From assembly GCA_019694345.1 (NCBI GenBank), contig JAIBCA010000047.1, positions 1 to 64,000 on the forward strand: DNA of 64,000 nucleotides, given 5' to 3'. This DNA comes from Pyrinomonadaceae bacterium (GTDB taxonomy: Bacteria > Acidobacteriota > Blastocatellia > Pyrinomonadales > Pyrinomonadaceae). Under the pieces are notes generated by a model, which saw only the letters and a list, made by a program, of their open reading frames with translations, did not search any database and was not told the origin of the DNA. Positions 40,243-46,374 of the stretch are shown here, one piece after another (position 1 is the first letter of the stretch; every line of letters starts with the position of its first letter). The position numbers were made by a program, and so were the translations under genes.

Positions 40243-41901
40243 TTATGAGACCAGCCTTTCCAGTAAACGTGTAACCTGCAATAAGAGCACGATAAGTGGA
40301 ATGATCGCGATCGCCGCGACGACCCCGCCCGCCAGTTTCAACCAACCGGTACGGTTGAGCCACGTTCGCTCAGCATGGGTCAGAAGTGGCGGAACCGACG
40401 CCAATACCGGCAGTCCAGTGTAGTGTTTGGCGTCAGCGATATTTTGGATCTTGAACAACCTAGGGATCTCAAAGAAGGCGGCCAATACGAGACCAAGAAA
40501 AAGTCCGATTCCCGTACCGACGAGGGTCAGCATAAACCGCTTCGGCGCGACCGGCGACTGCGGAACGTTCGCAGGATCCTGCACACGGATCGTCTCACCC
40601 TGGGCATTGGTCTCAACTCCGACTACAGTTTCCGCCTCGTTCTTTTTCTTCAGGATCTCGTCATACGTCTGCTTGGCCGATTGGTACTGGGCTGTTATGC
40701 CCTCAAGCGCGACCTTAACGTTCGGGATCGAGTTGATCCGCTGTTCGAGGGCGGCGACCTGGCCTGCGTTCTGCCGCAGGTCCGCATCCTTTGCGGTCAT
40801 TTGCTGTTCGATCTGCCCGATCTGCGCCTGGATCCGCTGATTTTCAAGCTCGAGACTCTTTTTCTGCAGTTCCGCCTTCCGGCCGCTCGCCTGTGTGGCG
40901 GTTTGAACGCGTCGATCAGAGTTCTTCTTAAGCCCTTCGATCTCCTCGTTGATCCTCGCGATCTCGCTCTCCTTTGCGATCACGGACGGGTGCTTGTCCT
41001 TATACACCTTTCGCAGATTGTCGAGCTGGCCGTTAAGATCGGCCCGCTTTTGAACGAGTTGGGCATATGCGGGCGTATCTTCGATCTGACTGGCGGCACG
41101 AGCAGTGTCCTGTGTTTCTTTTTCGCCAAAGTCCTCGATCAGGCGCATTTGTCGGTTATTTGCTCCGATCGCATCACTTAGACGGCCGCGCTCGTTCATA
41201 AGCGACTCTTTCTCTTTCATGATGTTGGACTCGCGGTCGCGGAGCCCGCTGAGCTGCGCCACCAGCCCCTGTTCGGATTCGGGCAGGGTCGCGACATTCG
41301 CGGTCATGATATCGAGCCGCTGCTTTTCCAGTTCGTCCAGTGCCTGTTTCTTTTCATTCAGCTGGCGTTCGAAGAGGTCCTTGGTCGATTCGGCGATCTC
41401 GGTCTGGGTCTGAACCTGAGCATTTACGTACTTGCTGGCAAGTTCCGCTGTTACATTTCTGGTCGCCTGAGGGTCTCGGTCGCGATACCTGATTCGAAAG
41501 GCAGCAACCTTCTCATTGCCGGTCTCTTCCAGATCGACCTTGATGTTCTTGTACATCTTGTCGACTATTAGTTCCATCGGCATGCCGCTGGCACGTTCCG
41601 CTTTGTAAAGGTCATACTTCTGAACGAGCGGTTCGAGCGAGGAACGGCTCAAAACTTCCTGATTGATAGTTTGCAACCGCTGCGAGAGATCTTCGTTGGT
41701 CAACGATTGGACCAGATTTGACGAAATGGTCGGTGGTTTGACCGTCAGCAACGACGTTGACTCGTAGATACTCGGCAGTCTATATACGACATAACCGATC
41801 GCAGCCGTCATCGTGATCATCGGCAAGATGATCAGCCACTTTTGCCGCTTGATGATTCCGATGAGTTCACCGGCACTTCGTTGTCTGAATTCAATACTCA
41901 T
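40243..41901 (-). CDS. polysaccharide chain-length determinant / GumC-type (Wzz)
   Basis: A 552-residue inner-membrane protein. A membrane segment at about 28-46 and another near 455-475 flank a long periplasmic region with coiled coils (about 165-235 and 280-390). Wzz domain features are seen at both ends, and a proline-rich motif (PANVPQSPVAPKRFM) sits before the second membrane segment, as in Wzz/GumC proteins that set polymer length. It has an additional membrane span at the C-terminus (about 525-545). Located after the small PEP-CTERM-like gene; RBS AGGTGG 6 nt before the ATG. Confidence 0.92.
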   Translation of the reverse strand: MSIEFRQRSAGELIGIIKRQKWLIILPMITMTAAIGYVVYRLPSIYESTSLLTVKPPTISSNLVQSLTNEDLSQRLQTINQEVLSRSSLEPLVQKYDLYKAERASGMPMELIVDKMYKNIKVDLEETGNEKVAAFRIRYRDRDPQATRNVTAELASKYVNAQVQTQTEIAESTKDLFERQLNEKKQALDELEKQRLDIMTANVATLPESEQGLVAQLSGLRDRESNIMKEKESLMNERGRLSDAIGANNRQMRLIEDFGEKETQDTARAASQIEDTPAYAQLVQKRADLNGQLDNLRKVYKDKHPSVIAKESEIARINEEIEGLKKNSDRRVQTATQASGRKAELQKKSLELENQRIQAQIGQIEQQMTAKDADLRQNAGQVAALEQRINSIPNVKVALEGITAQYQSAKQTYDEILKKKNEAETVVGVETNAQGETIRVQDPANVPQSPVAPKRFMLTLVGTGIGLFLGLVLAAFFEIPRLFKIQNIADAKHYTGLPVLASVPPLLTHAERTWLNRTGWLKLAGGVVAAIAIIPLIVLLLQVTRLLERLVS

Positions 41902-41925: not shown

Positions 41926-42117
41926 TTACGAAATCGAATCTCTCAGTTCCTCGTCGGTTTTCCGCTCATCCTTGACCCGCAAAGCCCACCGCAGGAGCCC
42001 CGCACCGACGATCAAGACCACACCAAATGCCATCAAGCCGGCTGCCTCCGGGATACGTGTGACGAGTCCCTCAAGGATCGCAAGATCGAATAGTGATGCT
42101 GTAAATGCAAGATTCAT
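41926..42117 (-). CDS. 63-residue protein with PEP-CTERM-like membrane segment
   Basis: A small protein of unknown function between prsT (18-nt gap) and the chain-length gene (24-nt gap), all on one strand. Residues 22-47 read like an exosortase sorting signal: I-P-E-A-A, a hydrophobic span of about 17 residues (GLMAFGVVLIVGAGLL), then R-W-A-L-R and further charged residues. Canonical PEP-CTERM signals have P-E-P, a membrane span and a basic C-terminus; here the P-E is kept and 16 charged/polar residues follow. There is no clear signal peptide. It may be a reduced exosortase substrate or merely a single-pass membrane protein. Confidence 0.55.
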   Translation of the reverse strand: MNLAFTASLFDLAILEGLVTRIPEAAGLMAFGVVLIVGAGLLRWALRVKDERKTDEELRDSIS

Positions 42118-42135: not shown

Positions 42136-44502
42136 TTAAAGCGACTCCAGCACGCGTTTGGCATCGTTTGCTTCGCTTTGACTCAAAGCCGTTTGATCTC
42201 TCAGCGATGCTTCGGCTTCACGCCTTGCCCCGGATTTGTCCCCGGCAGACGCAAGCGCCATGGCAAGTCGGACACGGTATCCGGAGGCGGCCTTGTTTCC
42301 AGCCTTTTCATCCATCAAAACTGCCTTTCTGAGCTGTTCGACGGCAGGCAGATACAAGCCCTTTTTCAGATATACATAGCCCAACGTGTCATAAAAGCCC
42401 GCAACGTCGGGATTTCGATTCACCGATGCGGATGCGAGTTGCAATGCTTCATCGAGATTGCCCTGATTCTCAGCGATCAGCCACGCGAGATTATTTGCGG
42501 CGATAGTTGAGTCCGGTGACAGTTCAAGAGCTCTCCTGTAACAAATTTCAGCTTCGGTCTGATTGCTGCGGGAATCCTCAAGTATCCCGATCAGCGTGAA
42601 TACCGGTGCGGTCGGATTCTTTGCAACGATCGCCCGATATTGTTCGATCGCGGAGGCGGTCTCGTTTCTGGCAACGAGCAGAGCAGCGTACGCCGAATAT
42701 GCCGGAAGGTAACCGTTATCGAGTTCAATGGCGGTGCGCAGTTCGGTCTCGGCCGCAGATCGATCTTTTTCGGCGGTATAAACACCTGATCTGAGGTAAT
42801 GGAGAGCCGCAAGCAACCCGTTGTTGCCAACATTGGCGGCCATGACCGCGTCGAGTTTCATATGAGCTTGCTTGGTCTGGCCCATTGCGATCGACACGCT
42901 TACCAATCCACTTAATGCATCAAAATTGCGTGCATCGACACCCAACGCCTTTTCGTACAGGGCCAATGCATCGGCCGGCTTTCTTTCGGCGATATCTACC
43001 TTTGCCAGATTCAACATTCCTGAAACGGACTTCGGCGACTTTCGAAGGATCTCTTCGAGATCTGATCGGGCCTCGGCCAGACGGCCCATTTCCAAATATG
43101 CGAGTCCCCTTGCCGAAAGGGCCCGCATCTGCAGTTCCTGAAGCCTCCCAACGGTAAGTTCCGCGTTCGGGGTCGCCGAACTCGCCCTCAAATACAGATC
43201 AGACGCTTGTTTGAGTGCTCCGGCCGTATCGCCGCCGGCCATCGCCGCCTGGATCTTCAGCAAACCTACCCTCAAGAATGACGGATGAAATTTCTCCAGA
43301 TCGGCGATGAATGCTCTTGCCTGGTCGAGTTGACCGATCGTGATCTTGGCCTGCGAGATATAGAACAAGGCATCGCGTTCGCTTGGGCGTTTTTTGAGAA
43401 TATCTTCAAGATCCGTGATCGCGTCATTTGGCCGGTTGTCCAGCATTCTGACCCGAGCCCGAAGCATAAGTGCCTCGACATCGTTATTATTGATCTTCAA
43501 AAGTGCATCGACCTGTTCGTTGACCTTCGCCGAATCCTTGGCGTCAAGATAGATCTGGCCCAGGCGATATCGAGCCCTCGTATAGTCTGGCGTCTCTCGG
43601 ATTATTTCGAGGAGCGTCGCTTCGGCAACATCGGGCCGATCGGTGATCACGTAGAACTCTGCCAGGTCCAAACGACTCTCAGCACTGTTGTCCTGGACGC
43701 GCACCAGTTCCTGATATGCAGCCTCGGCCTTTTCGTATTGACGCGTGGCAACATAAAAGTCGGCGATCGCTTCGTTAGCCTCGATATTTGTCGGCTCAGC
43801 CGCAATCGCATTTCGAAACTGCACCTCGGCCTCAGGATTTCGAGCCGCATACGTCAGAAAGCGGCCGTATTCGACCAACCCAACAGCCGAACCCGGACTT
43901 GCATCGATTCCTTGTTTGATCGTGTCTTCGGCTTCGCGTGCCATATCGCGGCTGACGTAATATCGCGACAGGCTTAAATAGGTCTCCGTGCGCTTCGAAT
44001 CGATCGCGATCGCCTCTCTCATTTTGGCAACGACCTCAGTCTCGGGACGATTTTGGGCGGCCAGAATGGAAGCTTTGAGTACGTGGCCTTCGATAAATTT
44101 GGGATCGATAGAGATGATCTCCTGCTGGACCTTTTCCGACTCGTCGATCATTGGCGGATCAATGAGTAGAAAGTAGTTGCCGAGCCTGGCTTTTGCATCT
44201 AGGTGTTTCGGGTCAAGTTCTACCGTCTTTCGCAATTCATCCAGAGTGTCATTAAAGCGACCAAGATTCTCGTATGAACGAGCGAGCCCCCAATGAGCCT
44301 TGGCAGAGTCCCTGTCATATTCGGCGGCTGAGCGAAATTGCATCATCGCGTCATAGAACTTGCGTTTTTTGAGGTATTCTTCGCCTTTTGAAATGAACTT
44401 TTCGCTGGACTGGCCGCAGCCGAACATAAAAAGACCCGCGAAAAACAGCAGAGACAGCTGTCCTAGGCGGATCTTGAAATTGGGGCACTCAATGTAACGC
44501 AT
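42136..44502 (-). CDS. prsT: TPR lipoprotein, PrsT-like (exosortase system)
   Basis: A 788-residue lipoprotein. The N-terminal signal ends in a lipobox LFMFGC with the modified cysteine at residue 29. From residue 36 on it is a continuous superhelix of about twenty TPR units (34-residue, such as AHWGLARSYENLGRF; IEANEAIADFYVATRQYEKAEAAYQEL). This matches the PEP-CTERM-system TPR lipoprotein (PrsT) in length, lipobox and context. Such proteins are thought to be needed for exopolysaccharide synthesis or transport. The promoter is likely in the 291-bp gap upstream. Confidence 0.88.
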   Translation of the reverse strand: MRYIECPNFKIRLGQLSLLFFAGLFMFGCGQSSEKFISKGEEYLKKRKFYDAMMQFRSAAEYDRDSAKAHWGLARSYENLGRFNDTLDELRKTVELDPKHLDAKARLGNYFLLIDPPMIDESEKVQQEIISIDPKFIEGHVLKASILAAQNRPETEVVAKMREAIAIDSKRTETYLSLSRYYVSRDMAREAEDTIKQGIDASPGSAVGLVEYGRFLTYAARNPEAEVQFRNAIAAEPTNIEANEAIADFYVATRQYEKAEAAYQELVRVQDNSAESRLDLAEFYVITDRPDVAEATLLEIIRETPDYTRARYRLGQIYLDAKDSAKVNEQVDALLKINNNDVEALMLRARVRMLDNRPNDAITDLEDILKKRPSERDALFYISQAKITIGQLDQARAFIADLEKFHPSFLRVGLLKIQAAMAGGDTAGALKQASDLYLRASSATPNAELTVGRLQELQMRALSARGLAYLEMGRLAEARSDLEEILRKSPKSVSGMLNLAKVDIAERKPADALALYEKALGVDARNFDALSGLVSVSIAMGQTKQAHMKLDAVMAANVGNNGLLAALHYLRSGVYTAEKDRSAAETELRTAIELDNGYLPAYSAYAALLVARNETASAIEQYRAIVAKNPTAPVFTLIGILEDSRSNQTEAEICYRRALELSPDSTIAANNLAWLIAENQGNLDEALQLASASVNRNPDVAGFYDTLGYVYLKKGLYLPAVEQLRKAVLMDEKAGNKAASGYRVRLAMALASAGDKSGARREAEASLRDQTALSQSEANDAKRVLESL

Positions 44503-44793: not shown

Positions 44794-46374
44794 CTATTCC
44801 GGTATGAAGGCCGGAAGCTGCTCGGCCAATCGAGCCGCCAGATCGGAAGCCGCGCTGAGAGCCTCATTTTGGTCAGCACCGACGCTGGTCATCACTCGGA
44901 CCATCGCACCGTCGGTCCGTCTACGGGTGATGCTATCGAAGACCGTATTAAGTTTGTCTTCGTATTCGCTGGCTTCGATGCGGCCACGCCCTTGATACCA
45001 GTAGATCATTACCTCGTTATAGACACCATTCTTAAGCAAATATCGATTGGCATTGAAAGTCCGCCCGTCAGAGGTCGTGATTGTGACTATCTGCGGATCG
45101 CTCATCACCCAACCGGCGCCAGGCAGGCAGTTTTGCGGGCTATGATAGGTTGCCCCGGTTCTCTGCGTCGAGTAGTAGCCGATGTAGATGTTGGCAACGC
45201 GTCCGCTTTGGGAGGTGTATTCTCGCATAGTGTAGTCGGTGGTTCTAAGGACCGCCTCGACATCCTTCCCAAATTTGATCTCATCGCCACGCTGCCCCCA
45301 AGTGCCGAGAGTTTTCGGCAGTTCTGAGAGCATCGTTCGGCTAACCTGCACCTCGCCGCGGCCGACGAACCAATTGACCGCAAGGCCTCCCAGGATCAAA
45401 GCCGCAATTACCGGCAGAGCTCCGGCTCGCGACGGATTTACCTTGAACCCTTTCTTGGTCTCCGGAGAAGCCGAACTATCTCGAAGCAGGCGTCTTAAAA
45501 CGAAATTCGCAATGATCAGAATGGCCAATGCGGCAACGTAGACCAACCACCCCGAGACATCATGCCAGATCCCGTCGGTTGCCGACCTTCCATAATAGAA
45601 CGTCAATATCCCGGTGCCCATTACTCTTCCGGCATTCGTGAAAACGGCGATCGGAACTGCTGCCACCATCAACAGTATTGTCCGTCCAAGGTCGGCCAAG
45701 GTAAATCCTCCGTAAGGCCCGTCGTCGTTGCGTCGCGTGAAATATGAGAGCACCAATGCTAGTGTGACAAGCGTCATCAGCGACCGGATACCACTACACG
45801 CCTCGACCACCTCGAGTGAAAGTGTCTGGGTGGCCCCTCGAGGCAAGATGTCTATGACGTTCCCCTTCCGGACCACCGGAATCTCAAAGAGCCTGATTCC
45901 CCACACCGACACTTGTGAGGCCCAAAGCTGAAGCGGAAAGGCGATCCGGTTGAATATGATCTGCGGTATCGGGATAGCGAGAAACAACAGGCCGAACGGA
46001 ACCGCTAAGTTCAAAAGCATCCGTCGCCCGAAAAAGTAGGTCACGATAGCCGCGGCCATGACCAAGAGTGATATCCGCTGTGTGAAGAGTTCCGATCCTA
46101 ATGTCCCGGCCAAAAGCAGCACGAACGCGGCCGCGATCGATATCGACCCAATCAGTTTGGAACCGCCATCTGAATAGGCCGCGAGTTTTTCGCGTTCGAG
46201 CCACAAGATGACACCGATAACAATTGGCACGAGAAGGCCGTGCGAGTAGTTTTCGTCGGTCCACCAGTCGTAACCGAGTTTGGATATTACTGAAAAATAC
46301 AAAAATCCGACCGCACCGACGATAGCCGCGGGTGTGGCCCATTTGAGACTTGTATTTGATCGAAGGCCCGGCAT
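44794..46374 (-). CDS. exosortase fused to EpsI domain
   Basis: A 526-residue fusion. The N-terminal 300 residues form a multi-span exosortase (EpsH/Xrt) with the catalytic triad in place: Cys193 (EACSGIRSL), Arg250 (NAGRV) and His271 (WHDVSGWLVY). It would cut sorted proteins at the PEP-CTERM-type signal in the membrane. After a linker the C-terminal 200 residues are an EpsI (DUF3485) domain, beginning after a last membrane segment and containing CLPGAGW with Cys416. Such exosortase-EpsI fusions are known in a subset of exosortase families. The gene is 60 nt downstream of the polyprenyl synthase gene. Confidence 0.92.
   Translation of the reverse strand: MPGLRSNTSLKWATPAAIVGAVGFLYFSVISKLGYDWWTDENYSHGLLVPIVIGVILWLEREKLAAYSDGGSKLIGSISIAAAFVLLLAGTLGSELFTQRISLLVMAAAIVTYFFGRRMLLNLAVPFGLLFLAIPIPQIIFNRIAFPLQLWASQVSVWGIRLFEIPVVRKGNVIDILPRGATQTLSLEVVEACSGIRSLMTLVTLALVLSYFTRRNDDGPYGGFTLADLGRTILLMVAAVPIAVFTNAGRVMGTGILTFYYGRSATDGIWHDVSGWLVYVAALAILIIANFVLRRLLRDSSASPETKKGFKVNPSRAGALPVIAALILGGLAVNWFVGRGEVQVSRTMLSELPKTLGTWGQRGDEIKFGKDVEAVLRTTDYTMREYTSQSGRVANIYIGYYSTQRTGATYHSPQNCLPGAGWVMSDPQIVTITTSDGRTFNANRYLLKNGVYNEVMIYWYQGRGRIEASEYEDKLNTVFDSITRRRTDGAMVRVMTSVGADQNEALSAASDLAARLAEQLPAFIPE

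Follow-up and report, generated by a model that had tools for sequence, protein, structure and literature searches.

A conserved, free-standing PEP-CTERM-like protein in the exosortase-linked exopolysaccharide operon of Pyrinomonadaceae

What might a protein that looks like a sorting signal, with next to nothing attached to it, be doing within an exosortase locus? The question is raised by a short reading frame in the window, by which we mean the whole 64,000-nucleotide stretch of Pyrinomonadaceae bacterium DNA that was analysed here. An original prediction, made from the letters of this DNA, had suggested that the frame could encode a very small substrate or a regulatory decoy of the adjacent exosortase. 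The parts that it described (a 63-residue protein with IPEAA, a 16-17-residue hydrophobic span, RWALR and a 16-residue charged tail) agree exactly with the translation of window:41926-42117(-), which yields 63 amino acids and a stop, MNLAFTASLFDLAILEGLVTRIPEAAGLMAFGVVLIVGAGLLRWALRVKDERKTDEELRDSIS, with IPEAA at residues 22-26. When modelled as a single chain with AlphaFold2, the protein forms one helix (residues 3-62), with best support over the span.

The host locus is an exosortase-linked exopolysaccharide (EPS) operon on the minus strand, in a member of the Pyrinomonadaceae (Acidobacteriota). Its genes encode, in order, an exosortase-EpsI fusion, a PrsT-like TPR protein, the small protein, a chain-length determinant, an ATPase, a tyrosine kinase, a sugar transferase, an export protein and a Ycf48-like protein. 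The exosortase of the window matches PF09721 at 1.6e-60, and the named relatives of the chain-length gene are metagenome-assembled genomes (MAGs) of Pyrinomonadaceae / Acidobacteriota. Because the small gene, on the same strand as its neighbours, is separated by only 18 bp from the TPR stop and by 24 bp from the chain-length start, it is very likely co-transcribed with them.

Table 1. Position in the window of the small gene, the parts of its product and the neighbouring genes.
Feature	Coordinates	Strand	Basis or remark
Exosortase-EpsI fusion	44794..46374	(-)	XrtD-like, below that model's cut-off; Cys/Arg/His present
PrsT-like TPR protein	42136..44502	(-)	Gene directly upstream of small gene
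Bitopic PEP-CTERM-like protein, 63 aa	41926..42117 including stop	(-)	Translation; homologues in same slot
N-terminal segment, residues 1-21	42055..42117	(-)	Predicted periplasmic; variable; K/R-poor; no cargo
P23-E24 of IPEA motif	42046..42051	(-)	P-E in 19/19 genus members; acidic residue in 31/31 of family
16-residue hydrophobic span GLMAFGVVLIVGAGLL, residues 27-42	41992..42039	(-)	Translation; AF2 helix
Basic end RWALR, residues 43-47	41977..41991	(-)	R43 invariant
Charged tail, residues 48-63 (16 residues)	41929..41976	(-)	Predicted cytoplasmic
Polysaccharide chain-length determinant	40243..41901	(-)	Gene directly downstream of small gene

An initial search of relatives gave matches in the window's genus, fourteen of which lay between the TPR and chain-length genes. 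Profile A1, comprising 15 members, was run against 162 genomes of the class and the loci were then read. The small gene was found in the TPR-to-chain-length slot of 32 genomes from nine genera; the window's genus accounts for 19 carriers and eight other genera for 13. This total includes G095, whose reading frame is degenerate and 38 residues long. In the phylum as a whole, sampled evenly with 396 genomes, the bare small gene was found only in the Pyrinomonadaceae, and the matches outside the family in the four genomes that were read proved to be VPEP or IPEP ends of larger proteins. A fully supported split in a tree of the TPR protein has all carriers on one side; of the 31 tips there, 30 have the small gene, the single exception being G033. 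It is also missing from G083, a genome absent from the tree, in which the TPR and chain-length genes are nearly adjacent. Two losses can thus be read in the loci (L084, 13690-13830, and L163; G033 and G083), each with nearly adjacent flanking genes and an exosortase retained in the genome; the small gene is dispensable.

The gene bears the marks of selection on a protein. Values of dN/dS are 0.02-0.05 in the three closest pairs of homologues, and genus members are 23-39% identical to the window protein. P23, E24 and R43 are the sole invariant columns among 15 genus members (R43 is likewise invariant in a 28-row alignment), and within the small family the conserved P is encoded by all four Pro codons and the E by both Glu codons. 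By these measures the gene is real but fast-evolving. The invariant P, E and R, the synonymous variation, the dN/dS values and the profile matches at PEP-CTERM ends described below together place the pattern of P-E, transmembrane span and R beyond chance. Conservation of P-E among homologues had been proposed as a check on the original prediction and was borne out, with P-E kept in 19/19 genus members and R43 invariant; no full-length homologue that would make this an unrelated protein turned up.

Conventional searches place the small protein poorly. Taken by itself, the pattern of P-E, transmembrane span and R in the window protein is not significant: its sequence has no NCBIfam family match and no match to a Pfam PEP-CTERM model at E<=1, and it is not among the PF07589 matches in its own genome at E<=10. 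Single-sequence family matches (Phage_holin_3_6, 0.0086; TraQ, 0.13) were weak and uninformative and were discarded. PF07589 weakly matched three of 15 individual small-family members (best E 0.031), and member-by-member family scans returned scattered sub-threshold matches, PEP-CTERM included.

A clearer relationship emerges from the canonical substrate of the genus. This protein, usually present as one ortholog per genome, consists of a signal peptide, an internal hydrophobic segment, a Pro-Thr-rich stalk, [VI]PEP, a LLFGTGLAS-type span, a basic cluster and a charged tail. The small-family HMM matches 17/17 of these substrates, once each, at the PEP-CTERM end; their signal peptides and internal hydrophobic segments, which act as built-in controls, gave no match. 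With hhalign, the small family and the canonical PEP-CTERM ends matched at 95.6% over 39 columns, tail included. By these profile comparisons, the small protein derives from a PEP-CTERM helix; it lacks both cargo and signal peptide. A conserved PEP-CTERM substrate that has the internal hydrophobic segment and the stalk rich in Pro and Thr, one to a genome, is seen at L099-L115 and L209-L221. Neither the canonical substrate nor the gene that comes after it in relatives was found in the window's genome; since that following gene is missing too, a gap in the assembly is no less likely than loss of the substrate, and the notion that the small protein is the sole exosortase target of this genome was not accepted.

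The small protein resembles PEP-CTERM domain proteins (PF07589 / TIGR02595; Haft et al., 2006, PMC1569441) in the order and predicted orientation of its P-E, the hydrophobic span directly after the motif and the basic cluster after the span, in its profile match to the canonical ends of the genus, and in having an exosortase in the same genome, here in the same operon. By the defining features, however, it is not a PEP-CTERM protein: the full and near-invariant Pro-Glu-Pro is replaced by PEA in the window protein and its third Pro is mostly absent from the family, the PF07589 cut-off is not reached, and signal peptide and exported cargo are lacking in all 31 members, as judged by their N-terminus of 11-22 residues before the motif, which is poor in K/R. 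Nor does the domain lie at the extreme C-terminus, as its 16-residue tail exceeds the median of three residues after the domain and the fewer than ten found in 87% of PEP-CTERM proteins (Haft et al., 2006, PMC1569441). This tail had been thought unlike canonical signals, a view that we reject because the genus's own canonical substrates also end in charged tails, which are a local habit.

Complete PEP-CTERM proteins are also found within EPS loci of the family. In another genus, L175 (G136:C6) and L176 (G137:C83) carry them between the TPR and chain-length genes, as 216/248-aa frames with a signal-peptide-like start. L178 has a 72-residue frame with such a start. A second locus type in the window's genus (L077-L083; G030, G060, G024, G006, G062, G005) places the gene of a short PEP-CTERM protein immediately upstream of the exosortase and lacks a TPR gene between exosortase and chain-length gene. 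The locus-borne proteins (L077-L082 beside the exosortase; L175 and L176 in the slot) share with the small protein a PEP-CTERM end within the same kind of EPS locus, and differ from it in their signal-peptide-like start, frames of 96-248 aa and full PEP motif. We infer that the bare small protein may have arisen from a locus-borne PEP-CTERM protein of this kind by losing the signal peptide and cargo.

How closely, then, does the motif of the small family follow that of real substrates? [VI]PEP is present in all 29 canonical substrates (17 from the genus and 12 from other genera). Small proteins retain an acidic residue in 31/31 cases and the first Pro in 26/31, whereas the third Pro is found in 5/31 against 29/29 in the substrates (Fisher 2.5e-12); IPEP is complete in three members. 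Outside the window's genus, P-E drifts to LDD, LSD, IDE, ASE and VSE. The first Pro is missing from the small proteins of G145, G079, G109, G108 and G092. In the first four of these the catalytic Cys, Arg and His of the locus exosortase are intact, and in G079, G108, G109 and G092 the canonical substrate still has [VI]PEP; no canonical substrate was found in G145, a genome that is 81% complete. Since substrates keep [VI]PEP where the small protein has lost its Pro, the exosortase's preferred motif has not changed, and a different constraint acts on the small protein. To judge by the motif, it does not behave as an ordinary substrate, and the 'very small substrate' of the original prediction is not supported in that ordinary sense: the third Pro is usually absent, and P-E has decayed in five species, of which four keep an intact exosortase in the locus.

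The distribution of basic residues bears on topology. The 31 homologues together have eight K/R residues on the N side of the span and 168 on the C side. Because basic residues lie nearly all on the C side, the positive-inside rule would place the N-terminus in the periplasm and P-E at the outer face of the inner membrane. The small protein is thus predicted to be N-out/C-in, as a PEP-CTERM domain would be before processing. The putative catalytic residues of exosortases have been placed at the same outer face of the inner membrane (Haft et al., PMC1569441).

An exosortase is detectable in 31 of the 32 carriers (19/19 in the genus and 12/13 in the others), so the idea of a PEP-CTERM-like small protein belonging to an exosortase locus describes something real and conserved. 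In the lone carrier without a detectable exosortase, G105, the contig stops just upstream of the TPR gene, and the enzyme may therefore be merely unassembled. The exosortase lies outside the stretch read in some carriers, for example G095, and also in G028 and G032 as assembled. Five further genomes of the window's genus (G010, G015, G020, G021 and G031) have no exosortase above the cut-off; upstream of the chain-length gene they have a 94-132-residue frame with a PEP-like C-terminal helix, in which the motif is mostly degraded (SFES, SAEP; DPEP in G015). Their loci are L173 (G010), L169 (G015), L172 (G020), L168 (G021) and L170 (G031). Because these genomes keep the helix before the chain-length gene, they suggest that the EPS machinery can make use of a PEP-like helix even where no exosortase takes part.

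Our tentative reading of this evidence is that the small protein stands alone as a PEP-CTERM helix and, rather than being exported cargo, most likely serves the EPS operon as a docking or assembly subunit. Its ancestor or model would have been a PEP-CTERM sorting domain, of which only P-E, the transmembrane span, the basic end and the charged tail remain. The helix and its cytoplasmic side would bind the polysaccharide machinery, with the chain-length determinant and the TPR protein as putative partners. In most species the P-E face might be held by the exosortase, either as a tether or as an uncut or slowly cut pseudosubstrate. The 'regulatory decoy' of the original prediction comes close to one form of this docking or tether explanation. 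With greater reserve, we consider it possible that a clade of Acidobacteriota uses a cargo-less PEP-CTERM domain as a dedicated exosortase pseudosubstrate or tether, through which the sorting enzyme is coupled to the complex that assembles the polysaccharide. Three findings speak against docking: P-E in 19/19 genus members is equally expected from selection as a substrate, three small-family members have the full IPEP, and G033 and G083 do without the gene although they have an exosortase.

The first two of these findings lend some weight to the best-surviving alternative, which we regard as rather unlikely, namely that the small protein is a true minimal exosortase substrate, cut at P-E so that the 11-22-residue N-terminal peptide is released or transferred. 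The invariance of P, E and R in the 15 aligned genus members, the predicted topology and the near-constant company of an exosortase also fit such a substrate. It would, however, be one without a signal peptide and with almost no cargo, since the N-terminal segment is short and variable, and the rarity of the third Pro and the loss of the first in five species, four with an intact locus exosortase, set it apart from real substrates.

Next in order, and in our estimate nearly as likely, the small protein would be an ordinary single-pass subunit of the polysaccharide machinery which today has no connection with the exosortase, its P-E inherited from a PEP-CTERM ancestor and kept for helix capping or membrane positioning. 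The position of the gene directly before the chain-length gene, the persistence of PEP-like helices there where no exosortase is detectable, and the drift of P-E outside the genus are in keeping with such a role; retention of P-E in every genus member despite 23-39% identity, and an exosortase that is nearly always present in carriers, are not. A precedent comes from the cellulose operon of E. coli, whose short membrane protein BcsF recruits BcsE (PMC7439463). BcsF and the small protein are both short membrane proteins of EPS operons, and the comparison, in which a partner is recruited to the membrane, is one of how they might work, with no homology claimed; BcsF belongs to a different EPS system, and the genes identified in the window locus are not bcs genes. 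We know of no exosortase link for BcsF. Finally, that the frame is spurious, or part of a non-coding spacer separating its two neighbours in the operon, might be suggested by the shortness of the gene and the antisense ORFs overlapping it, but is refuted by the conservation of frame, start and slot across nine genera, the low dN/dS and the synonymous variation at P-E.

A conserved, cargo-free sorting signal among EPS assembly genes would offer a small, testable link between exosortase sorting and EPS operons, and bears on how exosortases and their substrates come together and on why exosortase genes are found in such operons. No description of cargo-less PEP-CTERM helices was found in the open-access literature searched; if true, the tether or pseudosubstrate reading would add an exosortase partner of a kind for which we found no description. 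Annotation by PF07589 or TIGR02595 alone overlooks such proteins.

For the exosortase-EpsI fusion of the window (44794-46374) the best model is XrtD, with 362.6 bits against a cut-off of 400, and the fusion may represent an exosortase type that has yet to be named. Some relatives (L086, L166) encode the exosortase as a stand-alone protein of ~310 residues.
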